A stretch of 64,000 nt of DNA from Terasakiella brassicae. GTDB taxonomy: Bacteria > Pseudomonadota > Alphaproteobacteria > Rhodospirillales > Terasakiellaceae. The DNA lies in NCBI RefSeq assembly GCF_014641495.1, contig NZ_BMHV01000001.1:186001-250000 (forward strand), given 5' to 3'. How positions within the stretch are numbered: the stretch's first letter is position 1; each line of letters starts with the position of its first letter. The notes beneath the pieces are model-generated. The model searched no databases. It was not told where the DNA came from and saw only the letters and a program-made list of their open reading frames with translations. This document shows positions 10,773 to 15,704 of the stretch, piece by piece. A program made the translations under genes and the position numbers.

Positions 10773-11445
10773 GGCTGTTCTCGAACTTCAACGCCTCAAT
10801 CGTAGCTTTTTACAAGGCCATGATCGGCTGGATATCCTGAAAGAAGCCAGCCTTACGATCCATCCCGGTGAAATTGTGGCTTTGGTTGGTCCAAGCGGGG
10901 CCGGGAAATCCACCTTGCTGCAAACCGCAGGCTTGCTGGAACGCCCGGACAGTGGCGAAATTTTGATTGATGGTGTGGAAACTACAAAACTGAGCGATCG
11001 TGAAAAAACCCGACTTCGCCGCAATCATTTGGGGTTTGTCTATCAATACCATCACCTGCTGCCCGAATTTTCGGCTCAGGAAAATATTGTTATTCCGCAA
11101 ATGATCAATGGCAAAACGAAGCAAGAAGCGCAAATCCGCGCACAAGAACTGCTGGAAGCGGTTTCCTTGGCCAAAAGAGGGCAACACCGCCCTGCTGAAC
11201 TATCGGGTGGGGAACAACAACGTATTGCGATTGCGCGTGCCCTTGCCAACAAGCCGAAGCTTTTATTAGCAGATGAACCGACGGGAAACCTTGACCCGGC
11301 AACATCTGATCATGTGTTTAACCTGTTGCTGGATGAAGTACGCAAAGAAGGCCTCGCCGCGCTGATTGCAACACATAACCCGACCTTGGCGCAACGCATG
11401 GACCGGATTGTAAAACTGGAAAACGGTAATCTCATCACACAATAA
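10765..11445 (+). CDS. lolD: lipoprotein-releasing system ATP-binding protein LolD
   Basis: ATPase of the Lol lipoprotein-release transporter. It is 226 aa with Walker [10 protein letters not shown] (residues 42-50), an LSGGEQQR signature and Walker [13 protein letters not shown]. The start at 10765 is supported by GGAGG at about 10751, within the lolC coding end, giving an 8-bp overlap and translational coupling. A bidirectional terminator follows. Confidence 0.95.
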
Positions 11446-11457
11446 GATCAGATAAAC

Positions 11458-11490
11458 AAAAGGCGGCTTTCAAAGAAAAACCGCCTTTTT
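11458..11490. terminator. bidirectional terminator between lolD and the CBS gene
   Basis: AAAAGGCGG (11458-11466) pairs with CCGCCTTTT (11481-11489) and is flanked by A and T tracts, so it can act on both strands. It lies between the convergent stops of lolD and the CBS-domain gene. Confidence 0.8.
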
Positions 11491-11518: not shown

Positions 11519-11920
11519 TCAATCTTCCTTATAACCCAGTACCATATCGCGTAACGTGATAATCCCGATCGGATTGCGTTCGTGATCAACAACAACTGCA
11601 CGTGACACCGCATATCGCACCAACAGGCGCACCGCGTATTTGATATTCATTTCCGATGCAACGGTCAAAACCGGCTTGGTCATAATCTCATAGACACTGG
11701 TGCGCATCGCAGGGCGATCCGTTGCCACAACTTCACGGGCAATATCGCGAATGGTCAACATGCCGAACTCATCACTTTCGTCATGGCGTTCCACAATCAG
11801 GGAGCTAACCCCTTCATCCCTGATGATATCAATGGCTTCGGCAATGGTTGCAACGCGCCCGATTGTTTTGACATTCGGGGTCATAATATCGCTTACGCTG
11901 ACATAACTTTTCTCAGTCAT
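11519..11920 (-). CDS. CBS-domain pair protein
   Basis: A 133-aa cytoplasmic protein made almost entirely of two CBS motifs (about residues 8-65 and 75-130; SDIMTPNVKTI and YEIMTKPVLTV are the two repeat starts). CBS pairs bind adenosine nucleotides and act as regulatory sensors. It is the last gene of a minus-strand set: its ATG overlaps the stop of the PII-like gene (ATGA). It likely senses a nucleotide on behalf of the DUF1538 membrane proteins upstream, but no partner can be shown from sequence alone. Confidence 0.9.
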   Translation of the reverse strand: MTEKSYVSVSDIMTPNVKTIGRVATIAEAIDIIRDEGVSSLIVERHDESDEFGMLTIRDIAREVVATDRPAMRTSVYEIMTKPVLTVASEMNIKYAVRLLVRYAVSRAVVVDHERNPIGIITLRDMVLGYKED

Positions 11921-12267
11921 ACTTCACCTGCAATTTCTTCCATGATTTTAGGCAATTGGGTCTTCAATCCGACTGCATCTTCAAGATCAATCTGAAAAGC
12001 CAGTCCTGTTCCCGGTTCCTCATCAAATTTACCGGCAGTACAAATGGCTTCCAGAATTTTACGCGCTTGTGTCCCGGCAACTAAAAACAGGATAACGTCA
12101 CGCTGGGCGGTTAACTCCAATCCCATAAATCCTTTTTCCGGTGTCAGGCCTTCGCCGCGCACAGAACTGATGGTTGTGGCACCTGTCGCACCCGCTTCAC
12201 GGGCCGCATCAATCACGGTGTTTGTGATCTCATCGGCCACCATCGCAACAATAAGTTTTAAATTCAT
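11917..12267 (-). CDS. PII-like signalling protein
   Basis: A 116-aa protein with the ferredoxin-like PII pattern: [20 protein letters not shown] at residues 21-40 corresponds to the PII GATGAT-G-G segment, and a hydrophobic strand follows. It lacks the classic T-loop tyrosine context of GlnB/GlnK, so it is a PII-like regulator rather than a canonical nitrogen sensor. It overlaps the DUF1538 gene upstream and the CBS gene downstream by ATGA junctions, so all are translated from one message. A ligand (nucleotide or bicarbonate-type) cannot be decided here. Confidence 0.85.
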
Positions 12268-13069
12268 GCTTCACTCCCTGATGAAGACGCGACCTTTTTG
12301 GTCTTCGCACGCTTTGCCACTTTTTCGGCAATCAATGCATAGGCCAAAACGGACATAATTGGAAAAACACTCGCAAACGCAATTAAACCAAAACCGTCCA
12401 GCAACGGACTTCGCCCCGGTACAGTCGAAGCCAACCCAAGACCAAGGGCGGCAACCACGGGGACCGTCACAGTCGAGGTTGTTACCCCCCGCTGTCATAG
12501 GCCAGAGGAATAATTGTTTTGGCAGCAAAAAATGTCTGGAGAATGACGATTATATATCCAACCATAATATAGATGGGCAGGGGAGTCCCCGAAACGATAC
12601 GATAGGCCCCCAGCGAAACCCCAATCGCAACCCCGATTGCCACAGCGGCACGTAACCCCCATGCGCTGATACTGCCCCCTGAAATTTCCTCCGCCTTAAT
12701 CGCAACGGCAATTAACGACGGTTCCGCAACGGTTGTCGAAAAACCAATGGCGGCGGCAAAAATATAAACCCAGTAATAATCATGCCATTGCAAGGTTTCA
12801 GGCTGGCCTTTTGCCCCCAGAAAATCGGGATCTGATAATTGGGTTGCCATTGTTTCGCCCAGTGGGAACAACGCTTGTTCCAATCCGACAAGGAACAAGG
12901 TCAAACCAAGCAGTACATAGACAAAACCAATAATGATTTTTTTAAAATTCGGGACTTTTTTACGAATGACCAGAAACTGAAAGCCCAGCAAAATAGCAAG
13001 GATCGGCAACACATCCCGCCCGGTCGAGATAGCAGCATGAGCAATATTTATAATCCAATCCAGCATCAC
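12264..13069 (-). pseudogene. DUF1538 membrane protein, frameshifted at a G6 tract
   Basis: Second DUF1538 protein of the block. Translation from ATG 13069 runs 195 aa with multiple TM segments and ends in LAYDSGG followed immediately by TAA (12482-12484). The rest of the domain ([17 protein letters not shown] onward, about 73 aa) continues in the -1 frame to 12264. The intact paralogue at 13066-13800 reads [14 protein letters not shown] straight through. The break lies in a run of six G on the coding strand (12485-12490); seven would restore the frame to about 268 aa. It could be a true inactivation, a phase-variable tract, recoding or a homopolymer sequencing error. Both ends keep ATGA overlaps with neighbours, implying recent or apparent loss. 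Confidence 0.8.
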
Positions 13070-13800
13070 ATAATCATCCCGAACAAAAGGACAAAGATCA
13101 TGGGCGTGAGGCTGGCGAAAGCAATCAAGCCAAACCCATCAATCATGGGATTGCGCCCCTTAATGGTGGAAGCCAGCCCAACACCAAGTGCTGTTACCAA
13201 GGGCACCGTCACGGTCGAGGTTGTCACCCCGCCGCTATCATAAGCAATGCCGACAATTTCCGGTGGGGCAAAATTTGTAATCACAATAACAAGAATATAA
13301 CCGCCAATAATGAAATACTGAATGGGCCAGCCTTTTAAGATACGATAGACACCAAGAATAATGGCGCATCCCACAGATAGGGCCACAACCATGCGTAGCT
13401 CAAAAGCATACGTGGCCTGCGCTTCTGTTGTTAAAGGTATCTGCCCCCCTTTAGCGGCAATCTCGGCGGCTTCTGCCGCGACAGCGATCAAGGCCGGTTC
13501 AGCCACAGTTGTCCCAAACCCCAAACAGAAAGCAAAAGCCAGCAGCGCGATTAAGCTGCCCTTACGTGCAAACGCATTGGCCATTGATTCACCAAGGGGG
13601 AACAACCCCATCTCAAGTCCCTGAATAAAAAGGGCCAGACCCAAAACAACAAATAACAGACCCGGAATAACTTTATCCAGATTTGGAAAGGGTTGCTGTA
13701 GAACGATAATTTGGAAAAAGGCAATAACCAGAATAATGGGTGCCAAATCGCGCAAAGCCCCCACAAATAAACCTAAAAATCTTTTTAATCCGGGATTCAT
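13066..13800 (-). CDS. DUF1538 membrane protein, intact
   Basis: A 244-aa polytopic inner-membrane protein with about seven hydrophobic segments and the family motifs GLELGLFPLG-like ([14 protein letters not shown]), [13 protein letters not shown] and [14 protein letters not shown]. Paired DUF1538 proteins (UmpA/UmpB) have been reported as a two-component Na+(Li+,K+)/H+ antiporter in Halomonas; I rely on memory for that. Here the pair is followed by PII-like and CBS regulators with overlapping stop/start codons. A nucleotide cyclase lies 68 bp upstream on the same strand. The transported ion in this organism is unknown. Confidence 0.88.
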
Positions 13801-13831
13801 AAATCTATTTCGCGCCCCCTGTTTTTATCAT

Positions 13832-13860
13832 TACATATGTCTTAATGTATCCAACGACAA
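13832..13860 (-). promoter_or_regulatory. candidate promoter of the DUF1538 operon
   Basis: On the minus strand TTGTCG (13855-13860), a 17-bp spacer and TATGTA (13832-13837) lie about 30 bp before the ATG at 13800, in the 68-bp gap after the cyclase gene. If real, the operon can be transcribed independently of the cyclase. Confidence 0.4.
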
Positions 13861-13868
13861 AGAACAAG

Positions 13869-15704
13869 TTACGTTTTTGGAACATAAAGACGAACCCGGC
13901 CATTTAGACCACGCACTGTGGTTGTTCCAATCGTGCGCAGTTCAATGTTTTTCACATTCTGGGCAGTGGCTTCAGAAATAAGGATATTTGTCCCAAATTC
14001 CTTGTTCAGATTTTCAATTCGCGAGGCCAGATTTACAGCATCCCCATGAACCGTATAATTCAGGCGGCCTTGCGCACCAACGGCCCCGGCCACCACAGTT
14101 CCGGTGTTCAATCCAATTCGGCTTTTTAAATAAATACCATCAAATGTTTTTGTATCGAGTGTGTTGCAGATTTCCAAGGCCGCACGCAACGCACATTCCG
14201 CATGATCCGGTGCTTTAATCGGGACATTAAAGGTTGCTAGTACCGCATCGCCTTGAAACTGCGTTACAACACCGCCATAACGTTCCAGAATCTCAACCAC
14301 TTGTGAGAAATATTCATTCAGGATCGCCACAATGCGTTCCGGCCCGACTTCTTCGGTTAATTGGGTAAAGCCTTCCAAGTCAGAAAACAGAATTGTGGCC
14401 TGTGTCGAAATCGGTTTCAGCTCTCCGCTTTCCTGCATTAAAGAAGCCGCAACCGATTCAGGAACGTAACGACCAAAAACTTCGCGGATCATGTCGCGTT
14501 CGCGCATTCCTTCGACCATTTCATTAAACGCCAAAGCCGCTTGGTCCAGTTCGCGCAAACGGCTGCGGGGTAAGGGTTCTATATCTTCAAACTTCCCAGA
14601 ACGGACCTTTTTCGCCGTATCTGCCAATCGAATAATGGGACGCGCCAGTTTTTTACCGACCTTCAGCGATAGAACAATCGAAATCACAAGGATAAGAAAA
14701 CCGGCCCCGGCCATTTCAAACAACTGTGTCCCCGCATTTCGATCCGACTTTTCGGTATTGATGTAAACCCCGGTAATCCAGGGTGTTTCCCCAAAACGTT
14801 CCAATTTACGCGTTGCAACGACATAAAGATCATCTTCAATACGTGCCCGGTTTACCTCGACATCCTGGATCGGTGTAATCAACCCGGCCTTGATAACCGG
14901 CCCGGCAATCAATCGATTAAGCTTGCTGTCCTGAAAATCGACCAAACGGGGCAGGGGAACTTCACTTTTACCTTCCAGCCAGTCGGTCCCCCGGCCAATT
15001 TCATCAGACACTGTACTGCCATGCGTTAACAGTGGATGTGCCAATAAATGTTTCGTACCGTACAAAATAAAAGGGGTCAGAAACTCGTCTGTAGAGGTCG
15101 TAAGAATGGTCTTTGACAGATCGGCAACCGTCACACCAATAAATAAAACGCCTTTTAGTTCCCCGTTTTGATAAAGGGGGGCACGCATATTCACAACCGT
15201 TTGTTTGCGTTCTTCATACCAGAAAAAACGGCCCCAAACATTTGTTTTGACCTTATCCATCAGTTGGAAAAGCTTAACGGTTTCCTCCGGCGTTGCGTCC
15301 AGATCTTCGCGCCAAACATTTTCATCGCGCAGCAGGTATCTGGCAACACCATCAGGGTACTGGATCCCCACGCCGGTCACGTTTGGGGTGGCACTGATAA
15401 CACCCCTGAAAAACGTTTGTACCTGAGCATGGTTTTCAATATCAAGATTCCCGATCTTAACTTGATCGCTTATCCAACGGGCCTGATTTTCAACAGGGAA
15501 TAACAGGTTTTCAACCTCATCAGTTAGCCTGTTGAGCGCCGTTTCGATCAAAAGATGATTGTAATCTTTTGTCAGTTTTGTCGTGAAGTTCAAACCCAGA
15601 TATAAAACATGCGCCACAGCAAACAGAATCAAACCACCGAAAGCGAAGAATAAAACGCTTCGGATAGGTTGCCTTGGAAAAGTGATTTTTTTCCATAAAT
15701 TCAT
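13869..15704 (-). CDS. membrane class III adenylate/guanylate cyclase with periplasmic sensor and HAMP
   Basis: Makes a cyclic nucleotide second messenger. Order in 611 aa: TM1 (about 17-37), a periplasmic Cache-like sensor (about 45-325), TM2 (about 331-348), HAMP (about 349-400), then the cyclase domain (about 430-600). Metal aspartates are D442 in FSDLEGFT and D486 in FQGDAV; the transition-state N558 and R562 are present in VNLASRIE. The position of the adenine-selecting lysine is Gln482 and the usual partner Asp is Thr551, so substrate choice (ATP or GTP) is not certain. The gene lies 68 bp upstream of the DUF1538 operon and divergent from dnaE. Confidence 0.9.
   Translation of the reverse strand: MNLWKKITFPRQPIRSVLFFAFGGLILFAVAHVLYLGLNFTTKLTKDYNHLLIETALNRLTDEVENLLFPVENQARWISDQVKIGNLDIENHAQVQTFFRGVISATPNVTGVGIQYPDGVARYLLRDENVWREDLDATPEETVKLFQLMDKVKTNVWGRFFWYEERKQTVVNMRAPLYQNGELKGVLFIGVTVADLSKTILTTSTDEFLTPFILYGTKHLLAHPLLTHGSTVSDEIGRGTDWLEGKSEVPLPRLVDFQDSKLNRLIAGPVIKAGLITPIQDVEVNRARIEDDLYVVATRKLERFGETPWITGVYINTEKSDRNAGTQLFEMAGAGFLILVISIVLSLKVGKKLARPIIRLADTAKKVRSGKFEDIEPLPRSRLRELDQAALAFNEMVEGMRERDMIREVFGRYVPESVAASLMQESGELKPISTQATILFSDLEGFTQLTEEVGPERIVAILNEYFSQVVEILERYGGVVTQFQGDAVLATFNVPIKAPDHAECALRAALEICNTLDTKTFDGIYLKSRIGLNTGTVVAGAVGAQGRLNYTVHGDAVNLASRIENLNKEFGTNILISEATAQNVKNIELRTIGTTTVRGLNGRVRLYVPKT

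Follow-up and report, generated by a model that had tools for sequence, protein, structure and literature searches.

Gene content of the locus

The window, meaning the whole 64,000-nt stretch of Terasakiella brassicae DNA analyzed here (assembly GCF_014641495.1, contig NZ_BMHV01000001.1, positions 186,001-250,000 of the forward strand), contains a set of five minus-strand genes between lolD, which ends at 11445, and dnaE, whose open reading frame (ORF) runs from 15749. The five genes encode a membrane class III nucleotide cyclase, two DUF1538 membrane proteins of the UmpA and UmpB types, a PII-like protein, and a CBS-pair protein (Table 1). The core module conserved among relatives consists of four of these genes, umpA, umpB, PII, and CBS, and not of all five. 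A first-pass annotation of this DNA had listed the same genes, and their identity, order, and strand stand, but it had missed a frameshift that splits umpB.

Table 1. Features of the DUF1538 locus, in window coordinates
Feature	Position	Strand	Evidence
Membrane class III nucleotide cyclase with sensor-like region and HAMP	13869..15704	-	PF00211 94.5 bits; PF00672 27 bits
umpA, DUF1538 membrane protein, UmpA type, 244 aa	13066..13800	-	PF07556 E 1.2e-68; AlphaFold2 (AF2) model all helical
umpB, DUF1538 membrane protein, UmpB type, -1 frameshifted	12264..13066	-	PF07556 matches in two frames
G6 run, umpB frame change	12485..12490	-	Sequence; directly before TAA
PII-like protein, 116 aa, short T-loop region, non-classical nucleotide-site residues	11917..12267	-	PF00543 38.3 bits (cut-off 25)
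CBS-pair protein, 133 aa	11519..11920	-	PF00571, two stretches, 81.1 bits
Terminator-like hairpin with T tail	11458..11489	-	14-pair stem, directly 3' of CBS gene

Families were assigned by the curated Pfam cut-offs, which place Guanylate_cyc and HAMP in the cyclase, DUF1538 in both ump products, and P-II and CBS in the two small proteins. Compared with the DUF1538 cut-off of 22.6 bits (PF07556), UmpA scores 231 bits and the first-frame part of UmpB 157 bits. The genome yielded no second DUF1538 set.

The genes are closely packed. ATGA overlaps, which had been proposed for all junctions among the last four genes, join umpB to PII (in the shifted frame of umpB) and PII to CBS, but the umpA-umpB junction reads TGATG. 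The previously reported 68-bp gap between the cyclase and umpA is confirmed by measurement (13801-13868); neither a terminator-like nor a minus-strand promoter-like site was found in it, and a weak 5-pair terminator-like site lies just within the 3' end of the cyclase gene. The hairpin at the other end of the set sits where the CBS and lolD genes converge. Its stem is the longest among 7 terminator-like sites, with 6.3 such sites expected in shuffled sequence, and it is the probable 3' end of the operon.

Conservation of the four-gene order

At least 539 relatives of UmpA occur in genome contigs, and the best 80 loci were used for comparison. Neighbor genes were called in these loci with profiles built in this analysis, and start codons were assigned by script. 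The order umpA-umpB-PII-CBS on one strand is present in 70 of the 80 loci, which amounts to 70 of the 72 that are not cut by a contig end. Eight of the other ten are cut in this way, and the remaining two (L030 and L071) have PII without a CBS match. Because the order is kept in nearly all uncut loci, it is more than a chance arrangement. A PII-like gene follows umpB in every one of the 74 loci that reach more than 44 bp beyond umpB, the remaining six stopping earlier, and the 4-base overlap between PII and CBS recurs in 57 of the 70 four-gene loci. Groups named in the record titles of the close loci include Alpha- and Gammaproteobacteria, Thiobacillus, Gallionellaceae, Chloroflexi, Nitrospirae, and Latescibacterota; since many of the records are metagenome-assembled genomes, binning errors are possible.

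An ORF survey around 82 close loci revealed no other gene that recurs at a frequency like that of PII or CBS. After removal of antisense artefacts, the next families are a response regulator (16/82 loci) and a GGDEF protein (10/82), found on mixed strands. The cruder ORF call of this survey recovers PII in 53 and CBS in 55 of the 82 loci, below the profile counts. In its 3.64 Mb the window genome has just three PII matches, which makes the linkage of DUF1538 to PII far from chance. Pairwise distances of the four proteins also correlate across 71 loci (r 0.68-0.78), the highest value for any pair in 1000 permutations being 0.146. The co-occurrence of a DUF1538 pair with PII-like and CBS genes, as first suggested from the window alone, is thus borne out by these loci and by the wider sample described below.

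DUF1538 architectures in a wider sample

DUF1538 is present in 86 of 199 sampled genomes of the order and in 116 of 299 of the phylum. It occurs in three architectures: a split pair, as in the window; a short tandem, in which two DUF1538 domains share an open frame of about 500-575 aa accompanied by PII and CBS; and a divergent long tandem of about 575-660 aa, accompanied by PII without a CBS match. The wider loci comprise the best-scoring ones of the order and phylum, together with 19 regions and 11 genomes picked by hand, mainly for tandem, long-frame, and divergent genes. Each genome contributed one locus per architecture, provided that 520 bp or more were available downstream. Four loci with less (L100, L106, L108, and L198), three with an incomplete or fragmented DUF1538 set (L115, L216, and L217), and repeats of a genome/architecture pair were excluded; L200, which entered the count among the split pairs, is a long tandem gene in truncated form.

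In 75 of the resulting 79 genome/architecture pairs (74 genomes), the gene immediately 3' of DUF1538 is a PII gene; the counts are 51/55 for split pairs, 6/6 for short tandems, and 18/18 for long tandems. A transporter gene linked to a PII gene, the arrangement of the AmtB-GlnK and SbtA-SbtB pairs, is therefore found both here and in the 74 informative close loci. CBS accompanies 41 of the 55 split pairs, some of the rest being cut, and all six short tandems. The extra length of the long tandem genes examined gave no PII or CBS domain match, and fusion of either sensor to DUF1538 is unsupported. Linkage to PII extends to plasmids: each of the five clostridial records inspected (of six matching; three annotated) has a P-II gene adjacent to or overlapping a tandem DUF1538 gene, and Methylocystis and Chelativorans plasmids carry two DUF1538 genes followed by P-II.

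The PII-like and CBS-pair proteins

The PII-like protein belongs to the PII superfamily by its Pfam score, and its family profile matches the PDB entry GlnB-1 (E 0.00018), an archaeal GlnB. Classical PII proteins are marked by the GDGK lysine of the B-loop, the RxR motif of the C-loop, and a full T-loop with a modifiable tyrosine, the basic residues being used for ATP. The two classical PII proteins of the window genome, which served as the alignment reference, keep these motifs. All 20 aligned sequences or halves of PII proteins linked to DUF1538 have neither the GDGK lysine nor the RxR motif, and each shows a gap of at least five columns in the T-loop region. Judged by its sequence, the window protein is not a GlnB or GlnK. 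Since the basic residues of the classical ATP site are lacking, the general notion that PII proteins sense nucleotides is not simply transferable to this family.

The CBS protein carries two CBS motifs (PF00571) in one chain, and its closest solved chain by profile is the cyanobacterial CBS-CP12 (5nmu; E 1.4e-33). The two share the CBS pair. The window protein differs in its gene setting and has no CP12 tail: of the 208 residues of the 5nmu chain, the match covers none beyond 127.

The cyclase

In five of five other genomes of the genus, a cyclase gene is the same-strand neighbor of umpA, at gaps of 55-69 bp; in G005 it is split across two contigs. Among the 80 close loci, a cyclase of the window type adjoins umpA on the same strand in two, both of the same genus. 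The wider DUF1538 loci, most of which reach only up to 1500 bp upstream, gave no cyclase match. The first-pass annotation had treated the cyclase as a fifth part of the system and had named absence from most DUF1538 loci as the result that would speak against this; such absence is what the loci show. As a conserved unit the five-gene system is rejected, the window-type cyclase being found at none of the compared loci outside the genus. The order contains 23 genomes (of 100) with a cyclase relative at E <= 1e-60, of which six belong to the same genus, six have DUF1538 elsewhere, and eleven have no DUF1538 match. Where both genes occur apart, they lie on different contigs (G011, G014, G021, G067, and G079) or far apart on one contig (G029).

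Within the genus, proS, lolC, and lolD on one side and dnaE on the other also keep their places where contigs are long enough. Because the flanking genes keep their order too, the co-location of cyclase and umpA is ordinary synteny. Between species, the cyclase is 67-69% identical (four full-length comparisons) and UmpA 89-92%. The cyclase is probably a genus-specific neighbor and not a core part of the system.

The cyclase protein itself looks active, given that the residues expected of a class III catalytic domain are in place: D442, D486, N558, and R562 are invariant in 12 aligned sequences, the two aspartates binding metal and the Asn/Arg pair stabilizing the transition state in this class. 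Its structural model (predicted local distance difference test, pLDDT, 77.6) shows a long helix at the N-terminus and, ahead of HAMP, regions rich in sheet, which may resemble the dCache pattern. All 50 matches listed in a PDB search are cyclase entries and say nothing of the sensor fold. The window genome has nine class III cyclase matches. Outside the genus, locus L026 carries a contig-cut GAF-GAF-PAS class III cyclase (L026:1-1978) on the opposite strand, starting about 1.3 kb before umpA; it is 32% identical to the window cyclase over 187 residues and differently built.

The umpB frameshift

The first frame of umpB (12482-13066) encodes 194 aa and ends at a TAA (12484-12482) that comes immediately after the G6 run. 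The remainder of DUF1538 lies in the -1 frame, which is open until a stop at 12266-12264, so that positions 1-161 of the PF07556 model match in one frame and 159-211 in another. In five of five genomes of the same genus, umpB is intact, and the place of the frameshift is occupied by other codons without the G6 run. Both parts of the window gene are still 81-86% identical to their counterparts in the genus.

ORFs of 100 aa or longer, taken from stretches of G001 and G003, served to scan for split genes at a match identity of 45% or more. Over the 56,131 window bases that matched proteins of these two relatives, umpB is the only split gene found. An assembly generally prone to indels is rejected as the source on this ground, while an isolated homopolymer error could still account for the split. 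Homopolymer runs are a common place of sequencing error. The split may reflect a mutation, a homopolymer error, or slippage, and in the window genome the antiporter unit would be either inactive, mis-sequenced, or rescued by slippage. Another relative also has umpB divided between two reading frames or ORFs (L073:887-1702).

Relation to known transporters

UmpAB of Halomonas zhaodongensis is reported to be a Na+(Li+,K+)/H+ antiporter whose subunits co-immunoprecipitate; it restored salt tolerance in Escherichia coli KNabc and let cells withstand NaCl, LiCl, and alkaline pH (PMC5484666). This agrees with the first-pass annotation, which had cited antiport by the Halomonas pair. The window and Halomonas pairs are alike in having two DUF1538 genes, of the UmpA and UmpB types, that share one base at their junction; they differ in the PII and CBS partners, the frameshifted umpB, and the sub-cut-off NCBIfam scores of the window set. 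DUF1538 is also listed, together with Mrp, Trk, and Kdp, among the families that predict growth pH (PMC13255231).

The AF2 model of UmpA is helical, with a mean pLDDT of 91.3, and conserved motifs lie at helix breaks (AEP, 100-102; DSGGVTTS, 188-195) and in the last helix (DGFGLIAF). PDB sequence searches with the DUF1538 transporter gave no credible solved relative. The UmpA model, which represents one subunit of a heterodimer, gave no Foldseek match at E <= 0.001, the best E being 1.1. Among the best 50 of 147 matches for this single subunit there is no AmtB or SbtA chain, and an NHA2 chain ranks 27th (E 3.1). VIA, applied to the same lone subunit, returned middling scores, at best a Z of 6.1, with a root-mean-square deviation of 4.6 over 68 residues. 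As half of a heterodimer was compared, these results point neither to a new fold nor to the lack of a structural relative.

Control of transporters by PII-type partners is described for AmtB, by GlnK, and for SbtA, by SbtB, in a review (PMC10710835). In AmtB-GlnK, as in the window, a membrane transporter gene adjoins a small PII-fold gene (PMC10710835); DUF1538, in contrast, is a separate Pfam family, and the window PII lacks the T-loop length and Lys/Arg positions of classical proteins. SbtA-SbtB resembles the window set in combining a transporter with a dedicated non-classical PII-like partner and in its Na+-linked transport (PMC8352866 and PMC10710835), while the window set has an additional CBS protein. 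Antiporters of the DUF1538 type are known, and so are transporters under PII control; no open-access publication was found that pairs the two, with or without CBS, or that links DUF1538 to PII.

A possible PII-controlled cation/proton antiporter

The four genes umpA-umpB-PII-CBS may form one functional unit, an UmpAB-type cation/proton antiporter under dedicated PII-like control and often with a CBS sensor, a reading whose chances we put at about even. It is suggested by the conserved gene order, the overlapping genes, the spread over several phyla, the near invariance of the PII gene over three DUF1538 architectures, and the correlated distances of the four proteins. UmpA and UmpB would pair up in the inner membrane as a heterodimeric cation/proton antiporter, and the PII-like protein might dock on its cytoplasmic face, by analogy with known pairs. 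A bound small molecule could then let the PII-like protein switch transport as in GlnK-AmtB and SbtB-SbtA, with ligand and direction likewise conjectural. The CBS-pair protein might supply an additional adenine-nucleotide (energy-charge) input, and the cyclase would be a genus-specific neighbor within a syntenic block, unneeded by the system elsewhere. PII proteins are known to control a few transporters, among them those for ammonium, urea, and bicarbonate (PMC10710835). If the proposal holds, PII control would extend to cation/proton exchange, and hence to pH and sodium homeostasis, and a PII-like family without characterization and a domain of unknown function would gain a testable role.

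Several observations weigh against this proposal. The Halomonas clone, a 4.2-kb insert with ORF1-4 in which umpAB are ORF3-4, is described without PII or CBS, and the terms "PII" and "CBS" do not occur in the paper (PMC5484666). Since umpAB alone gives antiport there, the sensors are not needed for activity; because the pair works alone in E. coli, PII and CBS partners would be regulators, perhaps inhibitors, and not required subunits. The NCBIfam scores fall below the equivalog cut-offs for both proteins: umpA reaches 380.6 bits with the UmpA model (cut-off 490) and 187.5 bits with the UmpB model, and the first-frame part of umpB reaches 242.1 with the UmpB model (cut-off 500). At the level of sequence, the window pair is a member of the DUF1538 family and not a Halomonas-type equivalog, and its umpB is not intact. 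The correlated distances fit inheritance as a unit, but shared descent alone may explain them. The 79 wider pairs are a non-random sample, and in four of them PII is not directly downstream: in G336 it lies upstream in one gene run, in G282 and G441 none was seen in the stretches covered, and G319 is described below. Finally, of the long tandem loci that extend 1000 bp or more downstream, 16 in number, none has a CBS match, which rules out CBS as an obligatory partner; CBS is common yet dispensable.

DUF1538 proteins could alternatively be PII-controlled transporters of a substrate other than Na+/H+, such as a metabolite or another ion, with antiport in the antiporter-less E. coli strain a side activity. 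There is a single functional report, from a heterologous host (PMC5484666), DUF1538-PII pairs occur in varied organisms and on plasmids, including those of Clostridia, and structure cannot assign a substrate, no credible solved relative having been found by sequence. The tolerance to NaCl, LiCl, and alkaline pH reported alongside antiport, and the place of DUF1538 among the growth-pH predictors, make this alternative doubtful. A further alternative keeps the transport activity and moves the sensors: the PII-like and CBS proteins would be co-transcribed with umpAB yet act elsewhere, on enzymes or transcription, their linkage serving dosage or co-regulation. The activity of Halomonas umpAB in E. 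coli without either partner would be expected under it. Linkage of PII, however, persists over split, short tandem, and long tandem genes, in Pseudomonadota and Bacillota, while other neighbors change, and we regard an action elsewhere as unlikely.

Two other explanations concern the genus or the window genome alone. In the genus, all five genes might act as one system: a periplasmic cue would drive the cyclase to produce cAMP or cGMP, which the PII-like or the CBS protein would read so as to set UmpAB activity. The constant position of the cyclase beside umpA, the lack of a terminator- or promoter-like site in the 68-bp gap, the invariant catalytic residues, and the differently built class III cyclase near umpA at L026, on the opposite strand, fit this idea, as does the SbtB precedent of proteins binding many adenyl nucleotides, as reported (PMC10991534). 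On the other side, at the loci compared the window-type cyclase occurs beside umpA only in the genus, proS-lolC-lolD and dnaE also stay put, so that persistence is not independent evidence, and the cyclase diverges between species far more than UmpA. Such a system appears quite improbable, and its corollary, that UmpAB of the genus would be a second-messenger-gated antiporter with three inputs, an SbtB-like circuit around another transporter family, is more improbable still. In the window genome, umpB could be a fresh pseudogene in a dying operon, as opposed to a sequencing error or a frameshift of the programmed or slippery kind. That it is the sole split gene across the matched bases speaks against a generally error-prone assembly and so for decay. 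Decay would, however, be at most recent, with both parts still closely similar to their relatives and no further stop before 12266; homopolymer runs often give sequencing errors, and a stop right behind six G could allow -1 slippage. A pseudogene is possible on balance, if rather unlikely.

Loci with other layouts

Some DUF1538 loci depart from the layouts described above. In G336, two DUF1538 systems follow each other in one run, in the order tandem-PII-CBS-PII-umpA-umpB (L185:996-5214). The umpAB genes of G319 (L229:602-3206) lack PII; upstream of them lie genes for two membrane proteins of the CNNM/CorC type that contain CBS domains and are perhaps a substitute sensor. At L190 (3090-4000), a PII-like gene is apparently in two frames, a split that may be a sequencing error or decay, and the UmpA and UmpB domains share a 562-aa open frame.

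The clostridial P-II genes encode proteins of about 220 aa (L225:5401-6069, L226:6155-6829, L228:5353-6021, L227:5411-6064, and L223:6161-7078). Two PII halves are detected in L223, L227, and L228, the first weakly; for L225 and L226, Pfam finds the second half alone. In two split loci without CBS (L233:2562-3221 and L235:5716-6375), a 219-aa protein is encoded immediately 5' of umpA; that of L233 contains a bacterial SH3 domain according to Pfam, and that of L235 is alike at the start of its sequence.

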